This document shows positions 12,875 to 32,196 of a stretch of 32,276 bases of DNA, piece after piece. The notes under the pieces were generated by a model. It worked only from the letters and a program-made list of their open reading frames with translations. It was not told the origin of the DNA and ran no database searches. The translations under genes were made by a program, and so were the position numbers. The stretch is from contig JAFSMS010000007.1 of NCBI GenBank assembly GCA_017447815.1, positions 1 to 32,276 of the forward strand, given 5' to 3'. This DNA comes from Bacteroidales bacterium (GTDB taxonomy: Bacteria > Bacteroidota > Bacteroidia > Bacteroidales > UBA932). Numbering within the stretch: position 1 is the first letter of the stretch; each line of letters starts with the position of its first letter.

Positions 12875-12875
12875 A

Positions 12876-13623: not shown

Positions 13624-13676
13624 GCGATAATGCGCGTGTGTATTTTTAATAAGAAATAGTCATTTCCGCGGATACT

Positions 13677-13743: not shown

Positions 13744-16464
13744 GTGATTGTGAAAAAACTTCATACTGTAGTGTTGGCTTTCCTGCTTTGCTGCATGAGC
13801 GCGGCAGGGCAGGAAGTTTTTTCCGGCGTTGTGAAAGATGCATCCACCGGAGAGCCGGTTCCCGGCGCCGCCGTCACCCAGGGGAAAAACTGGGCCCTGA
13901 CCGACTCTTTGGGCGTTTTTGTGCTGAAAACCCGCGAAAAAACACCGCTCACCATCACGTCCATGGGCTATAAACCGCTCCGGGCGGCCCTTGTAAACGG
14001 GGGCACCTACCGCCTCCGGCAGGATATTTTATCCCTGCAGGAGGTGGTCGTCACCGCCCAGGAGAACCACGGCCTCACCTCTTCGTCCAAGATCGGGGCC
14101 GACGCCATCGCCCACATCCAGCCCTCCAGCATCGCCGACATCCTGGAACTCCTGCCGGGCGGCTCCTCCAGCAACCCGGCCCTGGGCTCCCCGCAAATCG
14201 TGAATCTGCGCGCCGCCGGGTCCCTGCCGTCGGACTATGTCACATCGGCCCTCGGAACGCAGTTCTCCATTGACGGAAAGCCCCTCGGGAACAACGCCAA
14301 CCTCCAGTACACCCCGGCCTGGAGCAATCTCGGGTCCAACTACGTGAACCTGGGAACCGACATGCGCACCATCGGCACGGAAGACATCGAGACCGTGGAC
14401 GTGGTGCGCGGCATCGCCTCCGTGGAGCACGGAGACCTCACCAGCGGCCTTATCCAGATCAAGCGGATCAAGGGCGGAAACGACCTCCGGGCCCGTTTCA
14501 AGAGCGATATGACCTCGAAACTGGTCTATGCCGGAAAGGGCTGGGAGTGGGGCGGAAAAGAGCGCCGCACCCTCAACGCCAGCGTCAATTTCCTGGATTC
14601 CCGTTCCGACCCCCGGAACGTCCGCCAGAACTACAAGCGCCTCACCGGCAGCCTCCGCGGCGGCCGCACCTGGGCCGGCGGCGAACGCTTCGTCCATACC
14701 CTCAACGGCAGTTTCGACTACACCGGCTCGTTCGACGACCGCAAGAGCGACCAGGACATCGACGAGGTGGACGGCCGCCCGGCCGAAACCTACCGCTCCT
14801 CCTACAACCGCTTCCAGTTGGGGGCCGACTACACCCTTCAGGCAAAGGAGAACGATTCCTTCTTCCGCACCTTCAGCGTGAACGCCTCGCTCAGTTACGA
14901 GCGCGACCTGATCGACCGCTGGAAAAACGTCATCCTGTCATCGGAAACGCCCATTTCCGTCTCCCGCGAGCCTGGAGAATTCGACGCCATCATCGTCCCC
15001 ACGCGCTACGAAGCTACCCTCCAGGTGGACGGAAGGCCGCTGTACGCCTTCGTCAACGCCATCGCCCGCTTCCAGAAAGGCATCCACCGCATCAAGGCCG
15101 GAGTGGAGTGGAACTTCGACAAAAACCTGGGCCAGGGTACCCTTTTCGACGTCACGCGTCCCCTTTCCACCACCATGAGTTCCCGTCCGCGCGCCTATTA
15201 TGACATCCCGGCCGACAACCAACTGGCCCTTTTCGCCGAGGAGAACCTTCGCTTCCCGCTGGGGCCCTTCGCCCTGGAAGCCATGGCGGGCCTGAGGATG
15301 TCCATGCTCCTGGGGGCCGACAAAACCTACGCCATCCAGGCCAAACCCTACCTGGATCCCCGCGCCAACCTTCGCCTGGAGATGCCCCAGGCCCTGCTGT
15401 GGGGCTATAAACTGGAAAGCGGCCTGTACGGCGGCGTGGGCGTCCACAGCAAGTTCCCCACCATGGAAATGCTTTACCCGGACACCCTCTATTCGGACAA
15501 GCTTCAGATGAACTACTGGCCCAATGAAAGAGAACTCCGCCGCATCAACATGCTCGTTTACACCATCAACCCGGTGAACCGCAGCCTGGGCGCCGCGCGC
15601 AACGTGAAATGGGAAATCGGGGCCGACGCTTCCTGGAACGGCTGGACCGCCTCCGTGGACTATTTCGTGGAGGACATGACCTCCGGTTTCCGCGGCGGCA
15701 GCGAATACATACAACTCATTTCCAAGGACTACAACGAGCAGGCCATCGACAAGGCCACCCTCACCGGCCCGCCTTCCCTGGAAACCACGCCCTATGTGCT
15801 GGACACCACGCTGGTGTCCTACGGCCTGTCCACCAACGGCAGCCGCACCCTCAAAAAAGGCATCGAATACACCCTGGCCACGGGCCGCATCCCGGTCATC
15901 AACACCCGCCTTACGGTGAACGGCGCCTGGTTCCTCACGCAATACATGAACAGCCAGCCGGAATACCAGCGCCCCTCCTCCGTCATCAACGGCAAGCCCT
16001 ACCCCTACATCGGCATTTACGAAAAGAACGACAGTTATCTGTACGAGTCGTTCAACACCAATTTCCTTTTCGACACGCAGGTGCCCCGTCTGGGGCTCAT
16101 CTTCTCCACCTCCTTCCAGTGCACCTGGTTCACCGGCCAGCAGACGATGGTCGACGATTCCCGCCCCGTGGCCTATCTGGACAAAAACCTGGAGCGGCAC
16201 CCCTACACCGACGAATCCGATGCCGACGGCATCCTGCACCAGATGGTGCGCGAGTTCTCCAGTGCGCTGCTGGACTACCGCCGCATCCCTTTCTTGATGA
16301 ACGTGAACCTCAAGGCCACCAAGAAACTGTTCAAGGATAGGGCCACGGTTTCCCTTTTCGTGAACCGCCTGTTCACCCTGGCCCCTGACTACGAGGTGAA
16401 CGGTGTCGTAAAACGCCGTTCCGGAACCCCTTATTTCGGGATGGAACTGATGCTCAACCTATGA
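13744..16464 (+). CDS. TonB-dependent outer-membrane receptor with carboxypeptidase-like N-terminal domain
   Basis: This receptor is a 22-strand-type outer-membrane barrel that imports a bound ligand using TonB energy. It has 906 residues from GTG 13744, or 904 from GTG 13750. No ATG is suitably placed; GTG 13750 directly begins the Lys-Lys signal peptide (KKLHTVVLAFLLCCMSAAGQ), so it is a serious alternative. After the signal, residues about 23-105 are a CarboxypepD-reg-like domain (GVVKDASTGEPVPGAAV). The plug follows, with LQEVVVTAQ, IQPSSIADILELLPGG, QFSIDGKPLG and the strand DIETVDVVRGIASVEHGD. The remainder is barrel, ending in a strand with GTPYFGMELMLNL. The stop overlaps the next ATG by 4 bases. 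Its ligand is unknown. Association with DUF4876/DUF6850 genes is a known Bacteroidetes layout. Confidence 0.92.
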   Translation: MIVKKLHTVVLAFLLCCMSAAGQEVFSGVVKDASTGEPVPGAAVTQGKNWALTDSLGVFVLKTREKTPLTITSMGYKPLRAALVNGGTYRLRQDILSLQEVVVTAQENHGLTSSSKIGADAIAHIQPSSIADILELLPGGSSSNPALGSPQIVNLRAAGSLPSDYVTSALGTQFSIDGKPLGNNANLQYTPAWSNLGSNYVNLGTDMRTIGTEDIETVDVVRGIASVEHGDLTSGLIQIKRIKGGNDLRARFKSDMTSKLVYAGKGWEWGGKERRTLNASVNFLDSRSDPRNVRQNYKRLTGSLRGGRTWAGGERFVHTLNGSFDYTGSFDDRKSDQDIDEVDGRPAETYRSSYNRFQLGADYTLQAKENDSFFRTFSVNASLSYERDLIDRWKNVILSSETPISVSREPGEFDAIIVPTRYEATLQVDGRPLYAFVNAIARFQKGIHRIKAGVEWNFDKNLGQGTLFDVTRPLSTTMSSRPRAYYDIPADNQLALFAEENLRFPLGPFALEAMAGLRMSMLLGADKTYAIQAKPYLDPRANLRLEMPQALLWGYKLESGLYGGVGVHSKFPTMEMLYPDTLYSDKLQMNYWPNERELRRINMLVYTINPVNRSLGAARNVKWEIGADASWNGWTASVDYFVEDMTSGFRGGSEYIQLISKDYNEQAIDKATLTGPPSLETTPYVLDTTLVSYGLSTNGSRTLKKGIEYTLATGRIPVINTRLTVNGAWFLTQYMNSQPEYQRPSSVINGKPYPYIGIYEKNDSYLYESFNTNFLFDTQVPRLGLIFSTSFQCTWFTGQQTMVDDSRPVAYLDKNLERHPYTDESDADGILHQMVREFSSALLDYRRIPFLMNVNLKATKKLFKDRATVSLFVNRLFTLAPDYEVNGVVKRRSGTPYFGMELMLNL

Positions 16465-16853
16465 GACACAAACTCCTCATATTAAGCCTGTTGGCTTTTC
16501 TTGGCGGCTGTACAAAGCCCGCCTTGGACAACCTGTTCTGCCAACTGAGCCTGCAGGCCGCCCTGCCGGACGGCCGCCAGGCCGTTTCCATCACCGTGGA
16601 TCCGGCCCTTCCCGGCAACCAGTTGCGCAATCTCAATACCGGCATGGCCTATCCCTTCCCCACCTTCGTGAACAACCTGGGCCAGTTGCAGGTACAGAAA
16701 GGCGTGTATGTCATCTCCTTCGACGGAGACGCCCTCTTTGCCGACGGCAGCCATGCCAAAGTGCGTTTCTCGGGCTACGGAACGCCCGCCACGGCCGTGA
16801 ACATCCTGGAAGACGACCAGGTCGTGGAACTTAAACTCACCGTCCTCAGATGA
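16461..16853 (+). CDS. Small lipoprotein of the receptor operon
   Basis: This 130-residue protein has a signal and lipobox FLGGC with Cys17, so it should be a lipid-anchored periplasmic or surface protein. The mature part looks like one beta-sandwich: SLQAALPDGRQAVSITVDP, a loop with GMAYPFPTFVNNLGQLQVQK, GVYVISFDGDALFADG and the final strand VVELKLTVLR. I do not recognise a named family with certainty. It overlaps both the receptor stop and the barrel start by 4 bases (ATGA), so it is tightly co-translated with them. A role in ligand capture or receptor assembly is inferred from position. Confidence 0.75.
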   Translation: MRHKLLILSLLAFLGGCTKPALDNLFCQLSLQAALPDGRQAVSITVDPALPGNQLRNLNTGMAYPFPTFVNNLGQLQVQKGVYVISFDGDALFADGSHAKVRFSGYGTPATAVNILEDDQVVELKLTVLR

Positions 16854-18352
16854 TGACAGCCCTCCTTATATCGCTTTCCCTGCTGCTGCCCCCCGCGGAC
16901 AGCCTTTCGGCCGTTCAGCGCAGTTATGCCCGCGGAGAAAAAGTGCGGGTGAGCGAGGGGACGAGCGCCGCCGCGTATCTTTTCGGCCCGGATGCCGGCT
17001 ATTCCGGGGCGGCGGCTTCCTGGAACTACCGGACGGAGCCCGCGCCCGTCCTCCGCGAGGAAGGAACCGGCCTCAGCGAAGGGCAACTCAATATCGCTAC
17101 CCTGGTGCGGCTGGATTCGCTTTCGGCCGTGCGCGGCAAGGTCCGCTATGCCAACGGCGTCAAGCGCGGTGTCCTGTGGAACAGTTCTTCGGATTATTCC
17201 ACGCTTTATCCGTATGTCATGGCCGACACGGTGGGCGGAGACCTCCGCAAAGAGGAATATGCCTTCTCCGGCGGCTATACGGCCCGCCGGGGCCGATTCC
17301 ACTGGGGCGTCGAAGGCGCCTACCGGGCCCTCCACGAGTACCGCCAGGTGGACCCCCGTCCCCGCAACATCGTGTCGGACCTCCATGTCACCGGATCGGC
17401 CGGCTGGCGTGCCACGCCGGGCTATGTGCTGGACGCCTCCTTCGCTTACCGCCGCTATAGCCAGACCCAGTCCATGTCCTTCCACAACGAGCGGGGCCGA
17501 AACACGGCCATCCTGCATCTCACAGGCCTGGGGGGGCATTTTTCCCGCTTCGCCGGCGCCACCGACTCCTATCTGAACACGCGCTATACGGGGAACGGTC
17601 TCACCGTGGCCGCCGCCTGGCTGCCTGTGAGGGAAGCCGGCTGGAACGCCACGGCCTCCTACAGCCTGCTGGACCTGGTTCACTTCCTGCCCCTTCCCAA
17701 TCAGACAGAAATCCCTTATACGGAATTATATACACGAGAGGCCGATGCCCGGCTCCAGTATCTTTCCCGCGGGGGAGACCTCGCCTGGAAAGCCGGTGCC
17801 TTTGCCCGTTATCAATGGCGCATCGGCCAGGAGATCATCCTGGACAACGGCGCGGCCGGATACATCAAGGAACTGCTCCGGGCCGATATGTTCCACAGCG
17901 GCAACCTGACCGCCGGCGTGGACGGCCTGCTTCAGTGGCGGCAGCGCTGGAGCCTGGGGGCCCGCGCCGATTACACCCTCAATGAAGAGAATTACGCCTA
18001 CCCCGTGCGGACCCTGACTCATGCCGGGATCCGGGCCGGCCTGGACGCCGGCTATCGCCGCCAGAGCGGGCTCTGGCACTGGAAAGCGGCCCTGGGAGGC
18101 GGCCTGTACCGGTCCCTGTCGGGAACGCTCCGCATACCGGAAGAATACACGGACGCGCGGCTTGCCGCCTATTGGCAGGAGCAGTATGCCCGAATCTGCG
18201 CCGGCTCCTACGATGCGCATCTGCTGCTTTATGCCGAGCGCCAACTCTCCGCCCGCCTGTCCCTTTACGCACAGGCTTCCGGCCGGGCGCTGTTCCCCGC
18301 CGGTTTCGCTCCGGCCTTTTACAGCACGCTTAGTTTAGGAATAAATTTTTAA
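16850..18352 (+). CDS. DUF6850-family outer-membrane beta-barrel protein
   Basis: The protein has 500 residues. A short hydrophobic signal (MMTALLISLSLLLPPADS) is followed by an N-terminal segment with YLFGPDAGYSGAAASWNY. The rest is made of many alternating amphipathic strands rich in Tyr, Arg, Ala and Gly with short turns, and it ends in FYSTLSLGINF with a terminal Phe, typical of barrels inserted by the BAM machinery. From memory it fits the DUF6850 family that accompanies TonB receptors and DUF4876 lipoproteins in Bacteroidetes. It has no plug or TonB box. It begins inside the stop of the small lipoprotein, and the DUF4876 gene starts 13 bases after it. Function unknown; it may be a partner channel of the receptor. 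Confidence 0.78.
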   Translation: MMTALLISLSLLLPPADSLSAVQRSYARGEKVRVSEGTSAAAYLFGPDAGYSGAAASWNYRTEPAPVLREEGTGLSEGQLNIATLVRLDSLSAVRGKVRYANGVKRGVLWNSSSDYSTLYPYVMADTVGGDLRKEEYAFSGGYTARRGRFHWGVEGAYRALHEYRQVDPRPRNIVSDLHVTGSAGWRATPGYVLDASFAYRRYSQTQSMSFHNERGRNTAILHLTGLGGHFSRFAGATDSYLNTRYTGNGLTVAAAWLPVREAGWNATASYSLLDLVHFLPLPNQTEIPYTELYTREADARLQYLSRGGDLAWKAGAFARYQWRIGQEIILDNGAAGYIKELLRADMFHSGNLTAGVDGLLQWRQRWSLGARADYTLNEENYAYPVRTLTHAGIRAGLDAGYRRQSGLWHWKAALGGGLYRSLSGTLRIPEEYTDARLAAYWQEQYARICAGSYDAHLLLYAERQLSARLSLYAQASGRALFPAGFAPAFYSTLSLGINF

Positions 18353-18365
18353 CATTCAATAGATT

Positions 18366-19826
18366 ATGAAAAAGAATCTTCTCCTTGCAGCCCTTGCGTT
18401 CGTGGTCGCAGCCGCCTGCCAAAAGACGGAAGTCCCCGAACTCACCGTCTCCACCACCACCATCAACCTGGGTCCTGCGGGCGGTAACCAAATGATTACC
18501 GTCACGTCCAACCAGGACTGGACCGTGACCACCAGCGACAGTTGGATCAATGTGGGTTCCACCAGCGGTTCCGGCACCCTTTCCTTCGCCGTGAGCGTCG
18601 GCCAGTTCACCGAGGCGTCGGCCCGCAGCGGCCAGGTTGTGGTGAAGTCGGCCACCCTCTCCCAGACCATCGCCGTGGTGCAGAGCGCCCCGGTGGCCCC
18701 GGCCGAAACTTCCACCAACAGTTTCAAGGCCATCGCCCTCGGTGGAACATTTGAAATGACTGTTCCACAGGGCTATACCTACACGGTGAACAGCAGCGCA
18801 GACTGGATCACCACCGAGCCGGCCGGCAGCGGCCTCATACTTACCGTGGCTCCCTACGCCAACGCTACCGAGAACCGCAGCGGCAAGGTGGAAGTCCTCT
18901 TCGGCACCAGCGTGCTGGCCGAAGCCACCGTGGAACAGAGTTTCCGCAACGTGGAACCCGGTGAACTGCTCATCGAGGAGGTCTATTTCACCGGCAGCCC
19001 CATCGAAGGCTCCACCAGCCCCTCCATGGACCAGTACATCAAACTCACCAACAACGCCGACCATGTGGTCTATGCCGACAGGGTGCTCTTCGTGACCAAC
19101 TTCATCACGGGCACCATCACCAGCACCGGCGCCACTTATGAGTATCCCGAACTCACGGACGGCCTGGCGGTGAACAATATGTACGCGATTCCCGGCAAGG
19201 GCGACGAGCACCCGGTCGCTCCCGGCGAATCCCTCGTCCTGGCCCTCGCCGCCATCGACTACACCGCCTCCTACCAGGACGGCGAAAACCTCATCGAAGG
19301 CAACCTGAACGCCATCGACCTCTCCAAGGCCGATTTCGAATTCTACGACGAGAACGACTTCTATCCTGACACCGACAACCCCGATGTGGAAAACCTGGAC
19401 ATCTGGTTCAAGGAATCCCGTACCATCACCTCCCTGCACAACCGTGGCTTCGAGAGTTATGCCATCGTGATTCCCCCGTACAACGAGACCGCAGAGACCA
19501 TCATGACCAATCACCACTGGACCGGCACCTATTTCTTCCACTTTATGGAATGGAACTTCGACTATGACCTGGCCGATGAAGATGTGTGGGTGATTCCCGG
19601 CGAATGGGTCCTGGATGCCGTGAACTGCTGCACGGAAGACTCCTTCTTCCAGAACCCCTGGCCCGCCGCCTTCGATGCCGGCTGGACGCACGCCGGCGAC
19701 TATGACCGCGACCCCGCCCGCTTCGGCAAGAGCGTACGGCGCAGCGTTCAGGACGGCAAACTGGTGGACACCAACAATTCCACCAACGACTTTACCCCCA
19801 ACGCCACGCCCTCCCTTAAGAAATAA
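18366..19826 (+). CDS. Lipoprotein with two BACON-type domains and a DUF4876 domain
   Basis: The protein has 486 residues and begins with a signal and lipobox VAAAC (Cys18). Two Ig-like repeats of the BACON type follow, at about 25-105 (GGNQMITVTSNQDWTVT.., SWINV) and 118-197 (GGTFEMTVPQGYTYTVN, DWITTEP). The DUF4876 domain starts near ELLIEEVYFTGS and includes DQYIKLTNNADHVVYAD, the acidic FYDENDFYPDTDNPDVENLD, HNRGFESYAI, GEWVLDAVNCC and the final DTNNSTNDFTPNATPS, all characteristic of the family. The acidic clusters could bind metal ions, but this is not known. It is the last gene of the receptor operon and probably an outer-membrane, surface-exposed ligand-binding lipoprotein; BACON domains are usually linked to carbohydrate or mucin contact. 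Confidence 0.85.
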   Translation: MKKNLLLAALAFVVAAACQKTEVPELTVSTTTINLGPAGGNQMITVTSNQDWTVTTSDSWINVGSTSGSGTLSFAVSVGQFTEASARSGQVVVKSATLSQTIAVVQSAPVAPAETSTNSFKAIALGGTFEMTVPQGYTYTVNSSADWITTEPAGSGLILTVAPYANATENRSGKVEVLFGTSVLAEATVEQSFRNVEPGELLIEEVYFTGSPIEGSTSPSMDQYIKLTNNADHVVYADRVLFVTNFITGTITSTGATYEYPELTDGLAVNNMYAIPGKGDEHPVAPGESLVLALAAIDYTASYQDGENLIEGNLNAIDLSKADFEFYDENDFYPDTDNPDVENLDIWFKESRTITSLHNRGFESYAIVIPPYNETAETIMTNHHWTGTYFFHFMEWNFDYDLADEDVWVIPGEWVLDAVNCCTEDSFFQNPWPAAFDAGWTHAGDYDRDPARFGKSVRRSVQDGKLVDTNNSTNDFTPNATPSLKK

Positions 19827-21507: not shown

Positions 21508-21535
21508 TTCCTGCACAGGATTTCCATTTTTGTGC

Positions 21536-22402
21536 ATGAGCAATCAAAACCCTTTTTCGGCCCAAAACCGGGAGCAGCAGCTTTCCTCGCCCGACCAGAT
21601 CGGCAGCACCCTCAGGATAACGGCCCTGCCCGCCTATCTGCTGGCCCTCACCGTTGTCCTTCTTCTGGGCGCTTTCTTTGTGTGGGGCTTCCTGGGTACG
21701 GTATCAGACAAGGTCTATTACAGCGGAGTCGTTTTTCCTTCCGGCGGAACGGCAGACGTATCCCTTCCCAACCGGGGCATGGTGCGCACCATGTTCGTGC
21801 ACAGTGGAGACAACGTCACCCGCGGTCAGTCTGTGGCCCTCATTTCCATGGAGGACAGTTACAGCATCCTCACCAGCACGGTGGAGGGGACGGTCATAGA
21901 CACCAAGGCCGACAATGAACCCTTCGAGGCCTTCGAGCCCATCCTTAGCGTGGTCAGTGACGACGAACGTCCGTCCCGGCGGGCCATGCTCATCGCCTAC
22001 ATCGACAATGCCGGCCAGCGGGACTTGCGCGAAGGAATGAGCGCCCAGGTCTGGCCCGAGGACGAAAAAAGGGATGAGATCGGTTATGTCCGGGGAAAGG
22101 TTGTGAGGATAGACCGCTACCCCGTAGCGGAAAACCAGGTGAAGCAGTTTCTGAAAAGCGAGGACCTGGCCAGACGCCTGCTGGAATCGGGGAATATGAT
22201 GTATCAGGTCAATATTGAACTGCTTCCATCCAAAGACAACCCCGACCAGTACGACTGGTCCTTCGGCCAGCCCGAAGATGTGAATATGAATGTGGGAACC
22301 TACTGCTCGGTTCTTACGGAAACCAGGCGTCGCAGTATGTTCCAGTATCTGTTTGAGGAGGCCCGCACCCGCTTTCGCGCCGTCAAACTCCGTACCGAAT
22401 AA
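21536..22402 (+). CDS. NHLM-type secretion protein, HlyD-like (shortened)
   Basis: In NHLM/NHLP bacteriocin-export systems this subunit is the inner-membrane adaptor. The protein has 288 residues from ATG 21536; the frame opens at a TTG two codons earlier. The N-terminus reads EQQLSSPDQIGSTLRIT, very close to the LSSPEQLDxLL opening of NHLM HlyD proteins. One transmembrane helix follows at about 35-55 (LLALTVVLLLGAFFVWGFLG), then a lipoyl-like half-domain with GMVRTMFVHSGDNVTRGQ. A long alpha-helical hairpin, usual in HlyD adaptors and present in the second adaptor at 27664, is absent, and the protein is shorter than the family as I remember it. A weak -7-like CATTTTTG at 21525-21532 precedes it. 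Its TAA shares a base with the next ATG. Confidence 0.82.
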   Translation: MSNQNPFSAQNREQQLSSPDQIGSTLRITALPAYLLALTVVLLLGAFFVWGFLGTVSDKVYYSGVVFPSGGTADVSLPNRGMVRTMFVHSGDNVTRGQSVALISMEDSYSILTSTVEGTVIDTKADNEPFEAFEPILSVVSDDERPSRRAMLIAYIDNAGQRDLREGMSAQVWPEDEKRDEIGYVRGKVVRIDRYPVAENQVKQFLKSEDLARRLLESGNMMYQVNIELLPSKDNPDQYDWSFGQPEDVNMNVGTYCSVLTETRRRSMFQYLFEEARTRFRAVKLRTE

Positions 22403-24150
22403 TGAAAGAGGGAAGACACGACAGGGACTCCGCGTCCACGCTGAAACTTATGAGCCGCTATATGAAGGGCAGCACGGGTTTCTTCGTGGTCTCGTTCCTG
22501 CTCCTGATCATCGATCTGGCTTCCTATATCCTGCCGCCCTTCTTCCAGCAGGTTTACACGGACAACGTCATTACGCGCAAGAACCCCGAATGGTTCGGCC
22601 CCCTGATGTTCTTCTACATAGCGCTGTTTCTCTTGGAACTGGTGACCTGGCTGGTGGTGAGCCCCTTGCGTAAGAGGCACTTCTCCAAGCTGAACATCCT
22701 GGCCAATTCCCGCTTTGTCATCAGCCTCCTGCGGCTTTCCATGAGTCGGGTAGAGCAATTCACCTCCGGGGAACTGGTGGCCCGCTATACCAGCATCCGT
22801 ACGGTGTCCCGCACCATGGACAAGTTCTCATCGGCCGTGGTCTTCAGCCTCCGCCCCCTCATCTGTTCCTGGCTGCTGCTCACCTACAGCTGGAAACTGG
22901 GTCTGGTCGTGGTGATATCGATGCTGGCGCTGGTGCTGGTGATGCGGGCTACAGCCAACACGCTCAAGCAGAAGGCCCGGGGATCCGAGGTGACGGACGC
23001 CCGGCTGCAGGGACTCACCTCCACCGGCATCAAGAATATAGAGACCATCAAGTCCATGGGCGGGGAGCGCAACTTCTTCAGCCAGTGGGAGAGCGCTTTT
23101 GTGGAGGCGCTCAACGCCCGGGTCAAAACGAACTCCAGCATGATGAGGGTGGGGGCCATCCCCCTGCTGGTCTTGCATTTGAGCAACGCCCTCATCCTGT
23201 GCCTGGGCGCCTGGTATATCCTCAAGGGAGAACTTACCCCCGGTATGCTCCTGGCCTCCCAGGCCCTGGCTACCAGTATCATCTTCCCTGTCAACTTCGG
23301 CATTACCACCGCCCAGTTCCTGTTCCGTTCCCACGCAGCCATGGAGCGCTTGGAAGAGGTGGAGGAAGCCAGCCTGGAGGGAAACAGCCTGACGCTTCCG
23401 GAGATAGACCGGCTTCCCGCCCGGTCCAAACTGAGCGGAGAGGTGGAACTGCGCAATGTCACGTTCGGCTATGACCGGAGCCAGCCTCCGGTACTCAAGA
23501 ACTTCTCGCTCAAGATTACTCCCGGCCAGCGGGTGGCCTTCGTGGGCTTTTCCGGCTGCGGAAAAAGCACCATCGCCAAACTCATCTCCGGCCTGTACGA
23601 GCCATGGGAAGGAGAGGTCCTGCTGGACGGCATTCCCGTGCAGAAGGTCAACCGTGCGGTAAAGAACAACTCCCTCTCGGTTGTCAACCAGGAAATCACC
23701 CTTTTTGAGGGTACCATCGCCGACAATATCAAAATGTGGGACGAGTCCATCGAAGATTTCTCCATGGTGATGGCCGCCCACGACGCCCAGATTCACCAGG
23801 ACATTGCCGCGCGCCCCGGCGCCTACCATACGCTGCTGGCCGATAACGGGAAAAATTTCAGCGGCGGACAGCGCCAGCGCATCGAGATCGCTACCGCCCT
23901 GGCCAAAGACCCCACCATCCTCATTATGGACGAGGGAACATCGGCCCTGGATCCCAAGACGGAAGAGCAGGTGATGCAGCATATCAACAACCTGGGCATC
24001 ACCCTCATCCTCATAGCCCACCGCCTCAGCACCATCCGGGACTGCGACTGCATCTACGTGATGGAACGCGGTCAACTGCTGCAGCAGGGCACCCACCAGG
24101 AACTTATGCAGCAGGAAGGACTTTACCGTGAACTGATGAAATATGCCTGA
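22402..24150 (+). CDS. NHLM-type ABC transporter permease-ATPase without peptidase domain
   Basis: This protein should be one half of an export ABC transporter for a peptide or protein. It has 582 residues. The membrane domain (about 15-320) includes FFVVSFLLLIIDLASYILPP, FFYIALFLLELVTWLVV and LLVLHLSNALILCLGAWYIL. The ATPase domain has Walker A FSGCGKST with Lys388, signature FSGGQRQR, Walker B ILIMDEGTSALD and H-loop IAHRLSTI, all intact. Family members of the NHLP peptidase/permease/ATPase type carry an N-terminal C39 Cys-protease domain of about 130 residues that cuts the leader peptide. Here the gene starts directly at the first membrane helix region, so that domain is missing. It shares one base with the HlyD-like stop, and the next ABC gene follows 3 bases after its TGA. 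Confidence 0.88.
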   Translation: MKEGRHDRDSASTLKLMSRYMKGSTGFFVVSFLLLIIDLASYILPPFFQQVYTDNVITRKNPEWFGPLMFFYIALFLLELVTWLVVSPLRKRHFSKLNILANSRFVISLLRLSMSRVEQFTSGELVARYTSIRTVSRTMDKFSSAVVFSLRPLICSWLLLTYSWKLGLVVVISMLALVLVMRATANTLKQKARGSEVTDARLQGLTSTGIKNIETIKSMGGERNFFSQWESAFVEALNARVKTNSSMMRVGAIPLLVLHLSNALILCLGAWYILKGELTPGMLLASQALATSIIFPVNFGITTAQFLFRSHAAMERLEEVEEASLEGNSLTLPEIDRLPARSKLSGEVELRNVTFGYDRSQPPVLKNFSLKITPGQRVAFVGFSGCGKSTIAKLISGLYEPWEGEVLLDGIPVQKVNRAVKNNSLSVVNQEITLFEGTIADNIKMWDESIEDFSMVMAAHDAQIHQDIAARPGAYHTLLADNGKNFSGGQRQRIEIATALAKDPTILIMDEGTSALDPKTEEQVMQHINNLGITLILIAHRLSTIRDCDCIYVMERGQLLQQGTHQELMQQEGLYRELMKYA

Positions 24151-24153
24151 GCC

Positions 24154-26259
24154 ATGAACGATCTCTTCTTTGACCAGCTGGTCCAGCGCATAGAGGGCGA
24201 CAAAAAGGCCTTGAATGCCGTCGCCGACATCTTCCGGGGAATGATTGACCGCAAGATGTGGGAGAAACTCACCCATCAGCGGGAAATCCCGACCGACATC
24301 AAGCAGATTGAGGAGCAGTTCTATCAGCAGCAGATCTTTTTCCGCCAGGTGACGCTGGAGGGCAAGTGGTGGCGCTGCTGCTCGGGTAAACTCCTGGCTT
24401 TCACGGCCGATGCCGACGTCCCCGTCATTCTCACCCCCCATTTCGCCGACTATTCCTTCGTGCATCCCGAAAGCGGACAGCGCTGCCGGGCCGGCAAGGA
24501 CCACACCCTCCTCAAGCCGGAGGCTTTCTCCCTTTGTTATCCCTTGCCTCCCCAGAAACTCACGATAGGATCCTTTATGGGATATGCCCTTCGGCAACTG
24601 AGTGTTTACGACGGCATCTTTGCCCTGCTGGCCTGCCTGGCCGTGGTGCTGCTCACCATGTTTACCCCGTACGTGTGCAAGGTCTTGTTCAACGAGGTCA
24701 TTCCCTCCGGAGACACGGCCCAGCTCGTCCCCATCGCCACGCTGTTGTTCAGCGCAGCCGTGGGTCTGGTGACGGTGCAACTCATCCGCAACCTGCTGGT
24801 TGTGCGGATGAAGGACAAGACCGAATACGCCCTGCAGGCGCCCCTGATGACGCGCCTCCTGATGCTCCCCACCACCTTCTTCAAGCGATATGCGCCCGGA
24901 GACCTCTCCAACCGTGTGCTGTCGGTGGTACGGCTGTTCACCCAGCTCTCGCAGGATATGATTTCCACCGTGCTGTCCATGATCTTTACGGTGGTCATGT
25001 TTGTCCAGTTCTTCACCTATGGCGGCCCGCTGCTGTGGACCGGTATCCTGGTCATTGCCGTGTACGCCTTCACCGTTTTCGTCCAGTACCATTACAAAGC
25101 CATGGTGCAGGAGCGTGCCAACGCCAGCGCATCCAAACTCACGGGGCTCATCTTCAACCTGGTATCGGGTGCGCAGAAGATCCGTACCAACGGGGCCGAA
25201 ATCCGGGCCTTCCGCCACTGGGCGGTGGCCTACGAACCCTCCGACGCCTTCAGCAGCCGCTATCCGGCCATGTTCACCATCAGCAACGCGTTCAGTTACA
25301 ACACCCGCCTGCTGCCCATCATCGTGACCATGCTGGCCGCCTGGCACTACGGTCTGGGCCTGTCGGACTACATCGCGTACTGCAGCGTCCTCACCATCGC
25401 CGTGGGGGCCGTGGAGCAGTTTGAGCAGATTACCAAGGACGTGGCGCTGCTGGCCCCGGAAATCAGCCTTTGCCGCCCCATCCTGGAAGCCGAATCCGAA
25501 ATCCAGAGCGGCACCGAAATGCTCCGGCAGGTAAGCGGCTCCATAGACATCACCGGCCTCAAGTTCCGCTACGCCGCCGATATGCCCTACATCTTTGACG
25601 GGCTCGACCTGCATATCGATCCCGGAGACTACGTGGCCCTGGTGGGGCCTTCCGGCTGCGGAAAGAGCACGCTGATGCGCTTGCTGCTGGGCTTTGAGAA
25701 GCCCGAAAGCGGATCCATCTTCTATGATGAGCACAACCTGGAAGACGTGAACCTGCCCAGCCTGCGCCGCTACTGCGTGAGTATCTGCCTGCAGGACGGC
25801 CAACTGGTGGAAGGGACCATTCGTGACAACATCCTGTTCGGCAATGGCTGGTTTCCGGATGAACAGGTTCGGGAGGCCGTCTGCATGGCCGCCCTGGACA
25901 AGGACATCCAGGACATGCCGATGGGGCTTGATACCCGGATATCGGCTGACGGACAGGGGGTTTCCGGCGGTCAGCGCCAGAGAATCCTCATGGCCCGCGC
26001 CCTGATCCGCAAGCCCAGGATCATTTTCCTGGACGAGGCGACGTCGGCCCTGGACAATATCAGCCAGTACAGAATTGCCCAGAACCTGGCCCGGATGAAA
26101 TGTACCCGCATCACCATTGCGCACCGGATGAGCACCATCCGGGAGTGCAACCGCATCATTGTGCTTGCCGGAGGCCGGGTGGCCGAAGAAGGCAGTTATG
26201 ACGACCTTGTGGCAAAAGGCGGCCTGTTCAGTGAAATCATCAAACGGCAGACTGTATGA
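24154..26259 (+). CDS. NHLM-type ABC transporter permease-ATPase with long N-terminal domain
   Basis: This is the second half-transporter, similar to the NHLP export permease/ATPase subunit. It has 701 residues. The N-terminal soluble region (about 1-140) contains PVILTPHFADYSFVHPESGQ and PEAFSLCYPLPPQKL, closely matching the family's N-terminal domain (PVALLP..Y.L.DP.TG..). The six-helix membrane domain runs from about 150 to 440, starting near IFALLACLAVVLLTMF. The ATPase domain has GPSGCGKST with Lys504, VSGGQRQR, IIFLDEATSALD and TIAHRMSTI, all intact. It probably pairs with the preceding ABC protein as a heterodimer. Its TGA overlaps the TolC-like ATG (ATGA at 26256-26259). Confidence 0.9.
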   Translation: MNDLFFDQLVQRIEGDKKALNAVADIFRGMIDRKMWEKLTHQREIPTDIKQIEEQFYQQQIFFRQVTLEGKWWRCCSGKLLAFTADADVPVILTPHFADYSFVHPESGQRCRAGKDHTLLKPEAFSLCYPLPPQKLTIGSFMGYALRQLSVYDGIFALLACLAVVLLTMFTPYVCKVLFNEVIPSGDTAQLVPIATLLFSAAVGLVTVQLIRNLLVVRMKDKTEYALQAPLMTRLLMLPTTFFKRYAPGDLSNRVLSVVRLFTQLSQDMISTVLSMIFTVVMFVQFFTYGGPLLWTGILVIAVYAFTVFVQYHYKAMVQERANASASKLTGLIFNLVSGAQKIRTNGAEIRAFRHWAVAYEPSDAFSSRYPAMFTISNAFSYNTRLLPIIVTMLAAWHYGLGLSDYIAYCSVLTIAVGAVEQFEQITKDVALLAPEISLCRPILEAESEIQSGTEMLRQVSGSIDITGLKFRYAADMPYIFDGLDLHIDPGDYVALVGPSGCGKSTLMRLLLGFEKPESGSIFYDEHNLEDVNLPSLRRYCVSICLQDGQLVEGTIRDNILFGNGWFPDEQVREAVCMAALDKDIQDMPMGLDTRISADGQGVSGGQRQRILMARALIRKPRIIFLDEATSALDNISQYRIAQNLARMKCTRITIAHRMSTIRECNRIIVLAGGRVAEEGSYDDLVAKGGLFSEIIKRQTV

Positions 26260-27671
26260 GAAAGTGGTTTTTTGCGATCGTCCTCCTGTGCTGCTTGCCG
26301 CTGACAGGCAGGGCCCAGAGCCTGGATGAAGTGATCCGGCTGGCCCAGGACAGCACCATCATGGCTTTCCAGAGCCGCTACCAGTTCGAGTACAACTCCC
26401 TGCGCTACGCCCGCTTCGAAGCGCTCCGCAAGCCGCAGTTGGAATTCCGCTTCTCGCCCGCCTACCAGCGCATCATCGCCGATCCGGACCGTCCATACGT
26501 GTACCTGCGCAACTTCGACCGCTTCTCCTCGTCCGCAAAACTGAGGCTGAGCCAGAAACTGCTGGGCTTGGGCGGCGACGCCTTCGTGGAGAGCCAGGCC
26601 CTGTGGAGCGAATATTTCGGGCGGGATGTGAACAACCGCCCCCGGGACATCGTGGCCGTTCCTTTCAGCGTTGGCTATCAGCAGTCCCTTATCGGCTACA
26701 ATCCCTATCGATGGGAGAAAATCGTGGAGGGCCAGCGGCTGGAGACGGCCCGGAAAGAACTGAACTACCAGTTGTACCGCATCGCCGAGGAAGCCACCGT
26801 CCGTTTCTTCCGCCTGGCCTGTGCCCAGGGCAAACTGGACATGTGCCTGCGCAACAAGGAGACGGCCGATACCCTGTATGCCATCGCCCGGGAAAAAGCC
26901 GGCATCGCCATGATCACCCTGGCCGAACTCCGGTCGCTGGAGTTGCAGCGGCTCAATGCCGCCAATGCGCTCCTGAGCGCCAGGGGAGAGGAGCAACTGG
27001 CGCGGGAATCCCTGCTGTCCTATCTCCGTACGGACGCCATCCCGCCGGGCGCCCGGCTCACCGTACCCACCGGCATCAAGCCGGTTCCGCTCAGCGACGA
27101 CGATGTCCTGGAACTCGCCCGCAGCAACAGTCCGGCCCTCCAGCAAAAGCAGATGGAAATCTCCGAGGCGCTCCAGCAGCAGCACAAAGTCCGCCGGGAG
27201 CATGGCGTGAAAGTGGGCGTGGACCTCAGCGTGGGCATACAGCAGATCAGCAACACCTTCCTGGGCGCCTACCGCAACCCGCAGTTCTTTATGTTGGGAG
27301 GCGTCACCCTGAGCGTCCCGCTGATGGACCACGGTGCCGCGAGGAAGGGGGTGGCCGCCGCATCGGCCTGGAAAGCCCGCGAGGAACAGGCCCTCCGGGA
27401 GGAGGAACGCGCCCTGGCCGAAGACGTCACAACCACGCTGGACAAACTCCGTTCCCACGAGCAGCTGCTCACCCATACCGCCGAAGCCGTGGCCCTGGCC
27501 GATGAAGTTTTTTCCCTTACGGCCGAAAACTACGCCAACGGCCTCTGCGACATCAACACCTACTCCCTGGCCCAAAACCGGCGGGACAACGCCTATAACC
27601 AGCATTTGGCGGCATTGGCCGGCTACTGGACCACGTATTACCACTTATTAACCCTTACGCAGTATGAATAG
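26256..27671 (+). CDS. TolC-family outer-membrane channel protein
   Basis: TolC-like proteins form trimeric outer-membrane ducts for export. The protein has 471 residues. A Sec signal (MRKWFFAIVLLCCLPLTGRA, cut near AQS) is followed by SLDEVIRLAQDST, the usual first helix of the family. Two repeats of long helices with beta-strands are visible: KLRLSQKLLGLGG and VPFSVGYQQSLIGYN are strand regions, and the helices include IAEEATVRFFRLACAQGKLD and, later, LDKLRSHEQLLTHTAEAVAL. The second strand pair includes FMLGGVTLSVPLMDHG. The C-terminal repeat ends in SLAQNRRDNAYNQHLAALAGYW. It overlaps the ABC gene by 4 bases and the lipoprotein adaptor by 8, so it belongs to the exporter. Confidence 0.9.
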   Translation: MRKWFFAIVLLCCLPLTGRAQSLDEVIRLAQDSTIMAFQSRYQFEYNSLRYARFEALRKPQLEFRFSPAYQRIIADPDRPYVYLRNFDRFSSSAKLRLSQKLLGLGGDAFVESQALWSEYFGRDVNNRPRDIVAVPFSVGYQQSLIGYNPYRWEKIVEGQRLETARKELNYQLYRIAEEATVRFFRLACAQGKLDMCLRNKETADTLYAIAREKAGIAMITLAELRSLELQRLNAANALLSARGEEQLARESLLSYLRTDAIPPGARLTVPTGIKPVPLSDDDVLELARSNSPALQQKQMEISEALQQQHKVRREHGVKVGVDLSVGIQQISNTFLGAYRNPQFFMLGGVTLSVPLMDHGAARKGVAAASAWKAREEQALREEERALAEDVTTTLDKLRSHEQLLTHTAEAVALADEVFSLTAENYANGLCDINTYSLAQNRRDNAYNQHLAALAGYWTTYYHLLTLTQYE

Positions 27672-28497
27672 GTATCTCGTACTCATCGGCCTGCTCGGCG
27701 TTTTCTCCGCCTGTTTTTCCCGCCAGCCGGCTTCCCTTCCGCCGGTCCAGGCAGAGCCGGAGACCGTTCCGGCGGACCCCGTCGGGGTGCAGAACCGGAA
27801 TCTCCAGCGTTCGATAGAGGCCGAAGGCTTTTCCAGCAAGGGAACCATCCAGGCCGTCACCGAAGTGCCCGTCTATAGCCGTATCGGCGAGCAAATCGTG
27901 GAGTTCAACCTGGTGCTGGGCCAGCGCGTCCGCAAGGGGCAGGTGGTGGTCCGGCTCAACCAGTCGGTCCTTCAGGACAAGATTGCCCGGGGACAGGCCG
28001 AACTGGAAAAGGCCGAATTCCAGTACCAGTCCATCCTGATGGGGCAGGGCTACAAGCGGGGGGAACTGGAGAAAGCCCCCGAAGAAATCCAGCACCTGGC
28101 CCGCGTGAACAGCGGATACAATACGGCCAAGGCCGCCCTGCAGCAACTGGAGCACGAACTCACCTACTGCACCGTCACCGCTCCTGTCTCGGGCGCCGTA
28201 AGCCGCATCGACGCCACGTTGTACGGCGCGGCCACACCCGGTGTCCCGCTCTTTTATATCGTTGATACCGAGCATCTGAAAGTATGCTTCGACGTCTTGG
28301 AGAACGAACTCCGGAAATTCCAGAAAGGAGCCCGGATTCAGGTTATCTCCATCGCCTATCCCACCGAGGTCCACCAGGCCGAGGTGTCGGCCATCAGTCC
28401 CGTGGTGGAAAAAAGCGGGATGGTGCATCTGGAGGCCGTGCTGCAGCCCCATCCGCACCTGATGCCCGGCATGACCGCCATCGTCACCCTGCAGTGA
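27664..28497 (+). CDS. Periplasmic adaptor lipoprotein (HlyD/RND MFP family)
   Basis: This is a second membrane-fusion protein in the same cluster, with 277 residues and the lipobox FSAC (Cys17). The lipoyl half-motif begins at VPVYSRIGEQIVEFNLVLGQ and is closed at TYCTVTAPVSGAVSRID. Between them is a helical hairpin (about 98-165) with IARGQAELEKAEFQYQSIL and an ALQQLEHEL return helix. A beta-barrel domain follows, ending in HLMPGMTAIVTLQ. This is the layout of RND-type adaptors rather than NHLM HlyD. As a lipoprotein it would sit on the inner or outer membrane in the periplasm and could contact the TolC-like protein, supplying the hairpin that the first HlyD-like protein lacks. It overlaps the TolC gene by 8 bases. 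Confidence 0.85.
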   Translation: MNRYLVLIGLLGVFSACFSRQPASLPPVQAEPETVPADPVGVQNRNLQRSIEAEGFSSKGTIQAVTEVPVYSRIGEQIVEFNLVLGQRVRKGQVVVRLNQSVLQDKIARGQAELEKAEFQYQSILMGQGYKRGELEKAPEEIQHLARVNSGYNTAKAALQQLEHELTYCTVTAPVSGAVSRIDATLYGAATPGVPLFYIVDTEHLKVCFDVLENELRKFQKGARIQVISIAYPTEVHQAEVSAISPVVEKSGMVHLEAVLQPHPHLMPGMTAIVTLQ

Positions 28498-28517
28498 GGG
28501 AAATGTTGATAACTTGA

Positions 28518-28549
28518 TTTGGGCGGACAAGGGAAAAACGTTACCTTTG
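28518..28549 (+). promoter_or_regulatory. dnaE promoter
   Basis: TTTG at 28518-28521, a 20-base spacer and TACCTTTG at 28542-28549 match the Bacteroidetes consensus TTTG-N19-21-TAnnTTTG in full. The ATG at 28555 follows 5 bases after the box, so the transcript should start at or near the start codon (leaderless). Confidence 0.82.
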
Positions 28550-28554
28550 TTCCT

Positions 28555-31500
28555 ATGAGTTTTGTGCACCTTCATGTCCATACCCAGTACTCCATCCTGG
28601 ACGGACTTTCTTCCATAGGACAGCTTTTCGACCGGGCCGATGAACTGGGCATGCCGGCCCTGGCCATCACCGACCACGGCAACATGTACGGCGTCAAGGA
28701 GTTCTTCAAATACGCCAAGAAACACCCCAACGTAAAGCCCATCATCGGCTGTGAGGTTTACGTGTCCAAGGGGGACCACCGGCTGCGCGAAAAGGGATAC
28801 TACCACCTGATTCTGCTGGCCAAGAACTACACCGGCTACCTGAACCTGGTGAAAATCGTGTCGGAAGGGCACGTGAACGGCATGTACTATCGGCCCAGGG
28901 TGAGCCATGAGGTGATTGAAAAGCACCACGGGGGGCTCATCTGCTCGTCGGCCTGTATGGCGGGCGAGGTGCCGCGCGCCATTCTCGCGCATGACGAAAA
29001 AGCCGTGGAGAAGGCCATCCTGTGGCACAAACGGGTATTCGGGGAAGACTACTACCTGGAGGTGATGAAGCACAAGACGGAGGTCCCCGGCCTGGACAAC
29101 GAACTGTACAAAAACCAGTGCTACTACGACGAGGAAATCTTCCGCCTGGGGCAGAAGTACGGCGTGAAGGTGATCGCCACCAACGACGCCCACTTCGTCC
29201 GCAAGGAGGACGGTCCCGTGCACGACCGTCTTATATGCCTGACAACCAACGCTTACATCGACGACACCGACCGCCTGCGCTACACCCAGCAGGAATACAT
29301 CAAGTCGGAGGAGGAGATGCTCGCGCTGTTCCCGGACCATCCGGAGGCCCTGGAAAACACGCTGGAGGTGGCTGCAAAGGTGGAATCCTACTCCATCGAC
29401 CGGGACCCCGTGCTGCCCGTTTATGAGATCGACCCCGCCTTCATGGCCGATATCGACACATACCTGGAAAAGTACAAGGACATCATCGATACCGGCCGAT
29501 GCGACAAGCACGGCACCTACCGCGGAGACGGTTTCTGCCATTCGGTGGCCTACCTGTGTCACCTCACCTACCAGGGAGCGCACCAGCGCTATGGGGAAAC
29601 GCTGACCCCGGAACAGGAGGAGCGCATCGACTTTGAGCTCAAGACCATTTGCCGCATGGGCTTCCCGGACTATTTCCTCATTGTCCAGGACTATATCGCC
29701 GCCTCCCGCGCCGCCGGTTCCATGGTGGGGCCGGGCCGTGGCAGCGCCGCCGGTTCCGTGGTCGCTTACTGCCTCAGAATCACCAATCTGGACCCCATCA
29801 AATACCAACTCCTGTTCGAGCGTTTCCTGAATCCGGACCGCATCTCCATGCCGGATATCGACGTGGATTTCGAAGACCTCACCAAGGCGCACGACTACGT
29901 GGAAAAGAAATACGGGGCCGACCACGTCTCCCGCGTGATTACCTTCGGCACCATGGCGGCCAAGAGCGCCATCAAGGACGTGGCCCGCATCAGCCATGTC
30001 TCCATCGACGAGAGCAACCGCCTCACCAAGATGGTCCCCGACCGCCTGAGCGACGACAAGGGAAACGACGTGAAGATAACCCTCAAAAACTGCCTCAAGT
30101 ATGTCCCGGAGATGAAAAAGGAGTTGGAAAGCGGCCCTGAAATCAACCGGGAAGTGCTCAGATATGCCGCCGCGCTGGAAGGCACGGTGCGGCAGGTGGG
30201 CATGCATGCCTGCGCCACCATCATCGGCCGGGGAGACCTCACCGACTACCTCCCCATCTGCCTGTCCAAGGATAAGGAAACGGGGCTGGACGTGCATACA
30301 TCCCAGTATGACGGCCACTACATCGAAGAGGTGGGCATGCTCAAGATGGACTTCCTGGGGCTGATTACGCTCCAGATCATCCACAACTGCCTGGACCTTA
30401 TCAAAGAGCATCACGGCGAAGAAATCGATATCGAGGCCATTCCCATCGACGACGCCCCTACATACGAACTCTACGGCCGCGGAGACACCACCGCCGTGTT
30501 CCAGTTTGAATCGGAGGGCATGAAAACCTGGCTGCAGAAACTGCGCCCGTCCCGTTTCGAGGACCTTATCGCCATGAACGCCCTGTACCGGCCGGGGCCG
30601 ATGGATTACATCCCGGACTTCGTGGCCCGCAAACTGGGCGAACAGGCCATAGAATACGACCTCCCCGAAATGGAGGAATACCTGCAGGACACCTATGGCG
30701 TCACGGTGTACCAGGAGCAGGTGATGCTGCTGTCCCAGAAGTTGGCCGGTTTCACCAAGGGCGAGGCCGACAAACTCCGCAAGGCCATGGGAAAGAAGCA
30801 GATAGACATCCTGAACTCCCTCAAGGACAAGTTCATGGCGGGCGGCACGGCCAACGGCCATCCGGAAAAGGTGCTGGACAAGATTTGGAAAGACTGGGAG
30901 AAGTTTGCCCAGTACGCCTTCAACAAGTCGCACGCTACCTGCTATGCCTGGGTGAGTTACCAGACGGGCTGGCTCAAGTGCCACTATCCTTCCGAGTTCT
31001 TTGCCAGTTGCCTGAACTGCGCCAAGAGCATGGAGGAAATCACCAAGATCATGGACGACTGCAAAGGCCATGGCATCAAGGTGCTGAGCCCCGACATCAA
31101 CGAAAGTTCCGGCCATTTCACCGTAAACAAGAACGGCGATGTCCGCTTCTCCCTGGGCTCCATCAAGGGTTTTGGCGCGAACGTTGTGGATGCCATCGTC
31201 AAGGAAAGGGATGAAAACGGCCTGTTCACCGACATTTACGATTTTACGGAGCGCATGGCGGGCAGCGTGAACCGCAAGAGTTTCGAGTCGCTGGTGAATT
31301 CCGGCGCTTTCGACAGTTTCGGCCACAAGCGCAGCATGTACTTCCAGCCGGGCCGCGGGGGAGAACTGTTCATCGACCTTGTCACCCGTTACGGAGAACT
31401 TTACAAGAACGACACCATTTCCAGCGCTTCCTCGCTCTTCGGAGACATGGAGGAGATGAAGCCGGAGCGCCCGCCCCTCCCGGATTATGAGGGGGAGATG

Positions 31501-32196
31501 GACATCATGGAACTCCTGCAGCGGGAAAAGGACCTGGTGGGCATGTATCTCAGTTCACATCCCCTGGACCGCTATCAGTTCGAGATTCAGAATTTCACCA
31601 CTTGCCACCTGGCCGACCTGTCCAACTATGTGTCCGAGTGCGAAAGCAAGAAAAAGACCGCCAAGGTGTATGTGGCCGGCATCGTGACGGATTTCAAGCA
31701 ACTCACCACCAAGACGGGAAAGCCCTACTCGCGCACCATACTGGAAGACTACAGCGGCTCTTACGAACTGCCCCTGTTCGGAAAAGACCACGAGGCCTTC
31801 ATGCAGTACATGCAGCCGCACGCCGCCCTTTTCCTGGAAGGCACGGTGGAAGAGAAATTCTTCCTCAAGCCCGAGGAACGCGCGCAGGGAAAAACGGCCC
31901 CCTGGGCCTTTAAACTGAAGAAAGTCACCTTGCTGGGCAACATCAGCGACGATATCCTTACCGGCTTCTGCCTGGACATCACCACACCCATGCTCACCCA
32001 GCAGTTCCGCCAGGACCTGGTGCGGGTTATCAAGAAGCACAAGGGAAAAATCCCCCTGAACCTATACCTCTACGACCCCGTCACCCACTATCACATTCAA
32101 TTCTATTCCAAAAAGTTCCAGGTAGCCGTCACCTCCGATTTCATCCGGGACCTCCGTGAAATCGGCATCGACAGGTACGAAGTCCAAAGACGATAA
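28555..32196 (+). CDS. dnaE: DNA polymerase III subunit alpha
   Basis: DnaE is the replicative polymerase subunit that copies DNA in the replisome. It has 1213 residues from ATG 28555; the open frame to 28519 overlaps the promoter. The N-terminal PHP domain starts with FVHLHVHTQYSILDG and has AITDHGNMYG; its His residues suggest that metal binding is preserved. The polymerase core has GPGRGSAAGSVVAYC, the catalytic Asp cluster PDIDVDFED (from residue 433), then ALYRPGPMDYIPDF and YAFNKSHATCYAW. The helix-hairpin-helix region and OB-fold follow (KVYVAGIVTDFKQLTTKTGK). Length fits a complete family member. It is transcribed alone from its own promoter and is followed by GTGCAC repeats. Confidence 0.97.
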   Translation: MSFVHLHVHTQYSILDGLSSIGQLFDRADELGMPALAITDHGNMYGVKEFFKYAKKHPNVKPIIGCEVYVSKGDHRLREKGYYHLILLAKNYTGYLNLVKIVSEGHVNGMYYRPRVSHEVIEKHHGGLICSSACMAGEVPRAILAHDEKAVEKAILWHKRVFGEDYYLEVMKHKTEVPGLDNELYKNQCYYDEEIFRLGQKYGVKVIATNDAHFVRKEDGPVHDRLICLTTNAYIDDTDRLRYTQQEYIKSEEEMLALFPDHPEALENTLEVAAKVESYSIDRDPVLPVYEIDPAFMADIDTYLEKYKDIIDTGRCDKHGTYRGDGFCHSVAYLCHLTYQGAHQRYGETLTPEQEERIDFELKTICRMGFPDYFLIVQDYIAASRAAGSMVGPGRGSAAGSVVAYCLRITNLDPIKYQLLFERFLNPDRISMPDIDVDFEDLTKAHDYVEKKYGADHVSRVITFGTMAAKSAIKDVARISHVSIDESNRLTKMVPDRLSDDKGNDVKITLKNCLKYVPEMKKELESGPEINREVLRYAAALEGTVRQVGMHACATIIGRGDLTDYLPICLSKDKETGLDVHTSQYDGHYIEEVGMLKMDFLGLITLQIIHNCLDLIKEHHGEEIDIEAIPIDDAPTYELYGRGDTTAVFQFESEGMKTWLQKLRPSRFEDLIAMNALYRPGPMDYIPDFVARKLGEQAIEYDLPEMEEYLQDTYGVTVYQEQVMLLSQKLAGFTKGEADKLRKAMGKKQIDILNSLKDKFMAGGTANGHPEKVLDKIWKDWEKFAQYAFNKSHATCYAWVSYQTGWLKCHYPSEFFASCLNCAKSMEEITKIMDDCKGHGIKVLSPDINESSGHFTVNKNGDVRFSLGSIKGFGANVVDAIVKERDENGLFTDIYDFTERMAGSVNRKSFESLVNSGAFDSFGHKRSMYFQPGRGGELFIDLVTRYGELYKNDTISSASSLFGDMEEMKPERPPLPDYEGEMDIMELLQREKDLVGMYLSSHPLDRYQFEIQNFTTCHLADLSNYVSECESKKKTAKVYVAGIVTDFKQLTTKTGKPYSRTILEDYSGSYELPLFGKDHEAFMQYMQPHAALFLEGTVEEKFFLKPEERAQGKTAPWAFKLKKVTLLGNISDDILTGFCLDITTPMLTQQFRQDLVRVIKKHKGKIPLNLYLYDPVTHYHIQFYSKKFQVAVTSDFIRDLREIGIDRYEVQRR

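Follow-up and report, generated by a model that had tools for sequence, protein, structure and literature searches.

What would a machine descended from leader-peptide exporters carry once it has neither a leader peptidase nor a cargo gene beside it? The question is raised by five + strand genes at 21536-28497 of JAFSMS010000007.1, a contig of a Bacteroidales bacterium (assembly GCA_017447815.1). The entire contig of 32,276 nucleotides, called here the window, was analysed; it comes from a draft assembly of 118 contigs totalling 2.51 Mb, 86% complete with 4% contamination. The five genes form an operon encoding a mobile ATP-binding cassette (ABC) exporter that spans the inner membrane, periplasm and outer membrane. 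This cassette is a derivative of the NHLM kind of leader-peptide exporter, without the C39 leader peptidase, the HlyD hairpin or a linked cargo gene. Its components are:

21536-22402, + strand: HlyD-like inner-membrane adaptor, 288 residues, ATG start, hairpin absent (TIGR03794, 131 bits)
22402-24150, + strand: ABC1 permease-ATPase, 582 residues, without C39 (TIGR03796, 553 bits; PF00664 and PF00005, no PF03412)
24154-26259, + strand: ABC2 permease-ATPase, 701 residues, with an N-terminal domain of ~150 residues (TIGR03797, 617 bits)
26256-27671, + strand: TolC-like outer-membrane channel (OEP), 471 residues (passes PF02321 with 74.7 bits)
27664-28497, + strand: MacA/RND-type lipoprotein adaptor (MFP), 277 residues, lipobox Cys17, insert of hairpin length retained (TIGR01730, 101.9 bits, above cut-off)

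A preliminary description of this DNA had placed five overlapping or nearly adjacent genes here; its coordinates proved exact and the gene kinds were confirmed, with junctions that are overlaps of 1, 4 and 8 bases and one 3-base gap. The LSSPDQ start that it read in the HlyD-like protein is also present, as QQLSSPDQ. The mechanical open reading frame of this gene begins at TTG 21530, as against the ATG at 21536.

An exporter derived from the NHLM kind

The same five genes recur in identical order within one Bacteroidales genus. Of 300 sampled genomes of the genus, 18, the window's own included, have an ABC2 relative (E <= 1e-80); by ABC2 identity 13 of these carriers stand at 72-100%, G621 at 54%, and G501, G551, G605 and G606 at 32-42%. 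Scanning the contigs of named genomes gave 25 loci, many from rumen, reticulum or omasum metagenome-assembled genomes (MAGs); two distant ABC matches (L082, L083) were dropped, and L080, C39-bearing and labelled Oscillospiraceae, served for comparison only. At the level of the order, TIGR03797 (E <= 1e-110) matched six of 393 genomes, four of them over its cut-off. A phylum scan with ABC1 matched 30 of 395 genomes at E <= 1e-95; the other 29 matches have 35-44% identity and open frames of 719-784 residues, and the 17 of them that were fetched are the phylum relatives analysed below. As the five-gene arrangement recurs in many contigs, it is not due to chance.

The best NCBIfam models for the three inner-membrane proteins are TIGR03794, TIGR03796 and TIGR03797, in keeping with the descent from an NHLM-like exporter that had been proposed; all three score under their cut-offs. 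For HlyD the score is 131 bits against a cut-off of 156.2, and the match is split over profile positions 2-90 and 254-413 of 421. ABC1 scores 553.4 bits (cut-off 853.3) over profile positions 139-709 of 710, and ABC2 616.9 bits (cut-off 709.4) over positions 26-685 of 686. Since the ABC1 match begins at position 139, the C39 part is missing, and Pfam agrees; the preliminary description was right on this point. C39 directly precedes the ABC part in all 17 phylum relatives. A single change accounts for the C39 state on a tree of ABC1, in which the placement of L085 and L087 is unsure and long branches were flagged.

Walker A, the signature, Walker B with its glutamate and the H-loop are kept in all 22 C39-less ABC1 rows. 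The ABC2 proteins of these loci likewise have the ATPase motifs, except that of L087, which is cut by the contig end; the signature pattern is unmatched in L085 ABC1 and L103 ABC2. ABC1 and ABC2 would pair as a heterodimer in which both ATP sites are active. Among solved bacterial exporters the nearest to ABC1 is a PCAT-type peptide exporter chain and the nearest to ABC2 is HlyB. As type IV half-exporters the two are also matched, far under cut-off, by lipid A and glucan exporter models, as would suit the export of envelope material such as a lipid, glycolipid or polysaccharide. We consider such a non-peptide role improbable, since the NHLM models score far higher and no glycan or lipid gene linked across the loci was found.

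It had also been suggested that the substrate might be processed separately. For a C39 peptidase acting in trans this was not borne out: PF03412 matches two of the 18 carrier genomes, G551 and G616, and none of the other 16, which are drafts, and neither match is an exporter peptidase of a window-type locus. In G551 the matches lie in its own ABC1 and, weakly, in the gene preceding HlyD. In G616 a frame of 345 residues (L107 1216-2253, - strand) matches sigma-70 region 4 weakly and, after that, part of C39; because of the sigma-70 match we judged it unlike an exporter peptidase, and the candidate was rejected. The N-terminal domain of ABC2, tried as a degenerate C39 domain, was unsupported (hhalign probability 0.3%).

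The three-gene NHLM/NHLP exporter (PMC2887384) resembles the cassette in the models that fit its three inner-membrane proteins best and in having an ABC pair and HlyD in one operon. The cassette differs in standing under all three TIGR cut-offs, in having no C39 domain on an ABC protein, no linked NHLP/Nif11 precursor and no HlyD hairpin, and in its additional second adaptor. The hairpin is perhaps no strict mark of NHLM membership, as it is short in the C39-bearing loci L102 and L103 too; given the outcome for cut-offs, C39 and precursor, we file the cassette as an NHLM derivative. As in type I secretion systems, the genes for ABC, adaptor and outer-membrane channel lie together. The cassette shares with HlyB-HlyD-TolC an ABC, an adaptor and a TolC-like channel along one path, but has two different ABC proteins, a hairpin-less HlyD, an extra lipoprotein adaptor and no linked substrate gene.

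The two adaptors and the outer-membrane channel

Only 15 residues separate the lipoyl halves of HlyD in the window, and likewise in L084-L087, the four diverged members of the genus that were measured. The 17 phylum relatives, which all keep the hairpin, have 103-155 residues there, and four Bacteroidales NHLM loci (L101-L104) have 57, 17, 17 and 155. Compared with the solved HlyD 8dck, profile positions 30-193 span chain residues 55-409, with ~190 residues extra in the solved chain. The second adaptor has an invariant lipoprotein cysteine (Cys17, 20 of 20 sequences) and aligns along MacA and RND adaptors, the hairpin stretch included; its nearest solved chains are MacA-like and RND adaptors. 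According to PMC3391258, TolC is bound by the hairpin tip in HlyD, MacA and AcrA. The simplest reading of these alignments is that the work of the hairpin would have moved to the second, lipoprotein adaptor. The short HlyD would be seated on the ABC pair and hand the substrate to the lipoprotein adaptor, which would reach the OEP, so that the job of one adaptor would be divided between two proteins.

Three observations speak against this division. A hairpin-less HlyD is found also in L102 and L103, which bear C39 and have no adjoining second adaptor. The motif RxxxLxxxxxxS, given in PMC3391258 as the TolC-docking motif at the hairpin tip, occurs in the hairpin region of none of ten second adaptors, with two chance matches elsewhere. 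Finally, PMC8277102 describes BesA as a hairpin-less adaptor able to work alone. In view of BesA and the missing motif, the proposed division between two adaptors may be mistaken.

The TolC and second adaptor that the preliminary description assigned to the exporter are both there, the OEP passing PF02321 and the lipoprotein TIGR01730; the channel did not prove to be an unusual trait. An OEP-like gene lies beside the exporter in eight of the 17 C39-bearing phylum relatives, and also in L104, when counted by OEP profile (tblastn misses divergent OEPs), and a linked OEP is therefore not special to the cassette. A second adaptor adjoins the exporter in none of the 17: the adaptor profile picks up the HlyD proteins of these loci, and separate adaptor genes only in L187 and L189, at ~5-7 kb. 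The cassette resembles MacAB-TolC in that its second adaptor is of MacA/RND type, and TriABC-OpmH in having two adaptors (PMC8277102). It differs from both in having a bacteriocin-exporter type of ABC pair in place of MacB or RND, and adaptors from two different families. We found no published description of this five-gene arrangement in titles and abstract openings, subscription journals being outside the scope of the search.

Movement, exchange and constraint

The gene downstream of the cassette, with a likely start at ATG 28555, is presumably dnaE, a name given from reading its sequence; upstream are a gene resembling thiL, which scores under the cut-off for that family, and one for DUF4923. 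The cassette sits between DUF4923 and dnaE in the window, where the two are codirectional, and in G518, where they converge. DUF4923 adjoins dnaE without a cassette in six genomes, converging in G514, G594, G616 and G552 and codirectional in G540 and G621, and all six carry the cassette elsewhere. Fourteen different upstream neighbours were counted among the 20 loci with an upstream flank. This diversity, together with identical gene order in contigs of many separate MAG records, makes an assembly or binning artefact hardly credible, although all carriers are MAGs, the window's own genome has the completeness and contamination given above, and G621 has two dnaE copies.

The differing orientations in G518 and the window imply an inversion of the dnaE segment between them. 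The segment lies one way in G000, G540, G621 and G685 and the other way in G518, G514, G594, G616 and G552, as if it had flipped repeatedly. Compared with a close relative (L074, L089), window positions 28504-32183 and 11183-13624 both run the opposite way.

The identities of dnaE and of ABC1+ABC2 correlate weakly over 12 genomes (rho 0.20, p 0.11; rho 0.36 without G621), so some signal common to dnaE and cassette remains. The cassette is more similar than dnaE in 41 of 66 genome pairs, and the carriers' dnaE identities range over 62-98%. In approximately unbiased (AU) tests, applied to groups picked after the matrices had been seen, the cassette rejects the grouping of G000, G518, G514, G594, G685 and G540 (p 1.75e-5) and that of G552 with G027 (p 7.1e-11), and dnaE rejects two cassette groups (p 1.45e-8 and 6.4e-37). 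As its gene tree contradicts dnaE in these tests, the cassette has been transferred horizontally. Between the window and L074, synonymous divergence (dS) is 0.03-0.05 in the cassette genes and 0.20-0.52 in five neighbouring genes. A transfer gene was not recognised. Terminal repeats were considered as a mobility signature and rejected, since only one of 18 loci (L074) exceeds all 306 mismatched flank pairs; L066, second, exceeds most. In L074 (7100-14400) one copy of a 24-base direct repeat lies at the 3' end of the DUF4923 gene and the other immediately beyond the cassette; the copies match at 22 bases and are perhaps the trace of an insertion.

Different parts of the cassette have different histories. 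In L062 and L094 the OEP and MFP are 91-92% identical and ABC1 and ABC2 just 74-79%; between the window and L061, HlyD is 90% identical and ABC1 73%. Over 15 loci the identities correlate at 0.92 for ABC1-ABC2, 0.73 for OEP-MFP, 0.71 for HlyD-OEP and 0.42 for ABC1-OEP. Judged from these identities, cassette subunits recombine between lineages.

All five genes look constrained, with dN/dS of 0.06-0.28 across 11 cassette pairs, many of them near saturation with dS near or above 1, and of 0.08-0.20 between the window and L074. These ratios, even read with that saturation in mind, make it very unlikely that the cassette is a decaying remnant of a bacteriocin operon whose use has been lost, as do the ATPase motifs kept in every C39-less ABC1 row and the continuing transfer. 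Decay would account for the loss of C39 and precursor, and for broken copies such as L068, with an internally deleted OEP, and L077/L090 and L078, with the OEP or ABC2 in two pieces.

Apart from start, stop and one promoter-like box, no conserved DNA was seen outside the cassettes, and 3' of the cassette no RNA structure was detected (z -0.14). The box in the window is:

21526-21535, + strand: promoter-like -7 box (CATTTTTG) immediately 5' of the first start codon, differing from TAnnTTTG at one position

We take TAnnTTTG to be the promoter -7 box of Bacteroidetes. In its strict form it lies within 60 nucleotides of the start in 11 of the 19 cassettes scanned (two of whose starts, in L079 and L088, are not on ATG) as against 1.4% of random 60-mers; the window has it only with one mismatch. 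Elsewhere in the window, 13744-19826 holds a row of genes for a TonB-dependent receptor, a 130-residue frame, DUF6850 and BACON-DUF4876, an outer-membrane locus.

Cargo and candidate function

No precursor or modification enzyme was recognised among the contig genes scanned and, beyond the five, no gene recurs across the loci save generically matching ABC ATPases, so the absence of a linked precursor or modification gene reported earlier stands. The survey of homologous loci that the preliminary description had proposed gave no conserved small gene, a Gly-Gly precursor only in G551, and no support for a stand-alone C39 protease. NHLP leaders, searched with queries from L102 and L103, were found in none of 40 cassette-type loci, which include duplicates (ten stretches, L089-L093 and L096-L100) and represent ~30 distinct contigs; among 22 classical loci seven had them, the two query loci included. 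The query locus L102 has, at 2102-6660, three genes for NHase-like leaders and one for a DUF4135 (LanM-like) protein; its adjoining NHLM exporter bears C39 and has a hairpin-less HlyD. A strict scan for Gly-Gly small open frames matched one of the 40 cassette-type and two of the 22 classical loci; a looser pattern gave the same single match (L085) and none on reversed sequence. In the 18 carrier genomes there was no match to the NHLP and Nif11 leader models (TIGR03793, TIGR03798), to TIGR04149 or to YcaO. TIGR03793, which gives 80 bits on an L102 leader, also matched no control genome; TIGR03798 matched one control genome; TIGR04149 had one weak match among eight others and missed the G551 precursor too. 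With no control genome matched, the TIGR03793 and TIGR04149 negatives are weak.

G551 (L085) is the one carrier whose ABC1 keeps C39. It shares the five gene kinds and the hairpin-less HlyD with the window, but also has a VKOR-like gene (under the Pfam cut-off) 5' of HlyD, a Gly-Gly precursor after the OEP, and the MFP before the OEP. No relative of the VKOR-like gene occurs in the other loci compared. The precursor (L085 14287-14499), 90 bases after the OEP, has 70 residues with the leader LSEEELKNVTGG, two core cysteines and its own promoter-like box TATGTTTG, and matches no NCBIfam model. An Amidohydro_3 gene lies within a few kb downstream of the exporter in diverged loci (L084 18046-19899, L085 14616-16430, L088 13976-14821).

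Because the cassette moves without cargo, and the search of the carriers revealed no leader peptidase of exporter type, we favour, tentatively and at rather less than even confidence, a cassette acting as a cleavage-free efflux or immunity pump over one secreting an unlinked product of the cell. The substrate would leave through HlyD, the lipoprotein adaptor and the OEP without leader cleavage and, less surely, would usually be a toxic peptide or compound met by the cell, rather than a linked bacteriocin. This goes beyond the preliminary description, as do the missing HlyD hairpin, the recurrence in many contigs and the movement without cargo. An analogy for the proposed role is the enterocin immunity ABC transporter Mr10EFGH of Enterococcus, which is genus-restricted, mobilised alone and sometimes an orphan without its bacteriocin gene (PMC10598978); its host is Gram-positive and its gene set is different. 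PADLOC matches on the ABC proteins look like generic ATPase matches and were set aside.

Secretion of the cell's own product, encoded elsewhere, is a near competitor that we hold only a little less probable. The product would be a peptide or small protein exported uncut, either leaderless or addressed in some other way, and would have to be genus-core because the carriers differ so widely in dnaE, a spread that itself counts against it, as does the lack of a linked gene in any locus. No candidate was found for it, the carrier genomes not having been profiled whole. It would fit the nearest solved exporters and the precursor right after the OEP in G551, and PMC6959600 records type I secretion systems without C39 or a C39-like domain that secrete whole proteins. 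Efflux or immunity is no less likely, given that the cassette moves without a cargo gene.

Several points tell against the efflux or immunity pump. The ABC proteins are closest to peptide exporters, which is equally compatible with secretion; gene absences in the carriers are not proven because all are draft MAGs; the Gly-Gly scan is insensitive, as it detected only two of 22 classical loci; and transport of any substrate, toxic or not, is a prediction from sequence. Our grades of confidence are judgements. It is possible, and we hold it doubtful, that the cassette represents a mobile class of peptide-immunity systems arisen from bacteriocin exporters, in which a single Bacteroidales lineage would have dropped precursor and leader peptidase, kept the conduit with a divided adaptor, and spread it as a stand-alone unit whose halves HlyD-ABC1-ABC2 and OEP-MFP pass between lineages.

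The loci form a natural series, from classical NHLM systems (C39, hairpin and, in some loci, precursor) through G551 (C39 and precursor, hairpin lost, second adaptor) to the window type with neither C39 nor precursor. This series makes testable both the conversion of a leader-peptide exporter to a cargo-free pump and the division of the work of one periplasmic adaptor. If the immunity role is true, gut communities would have in the cassette a mobile means of defence against antimicrobial peptides.

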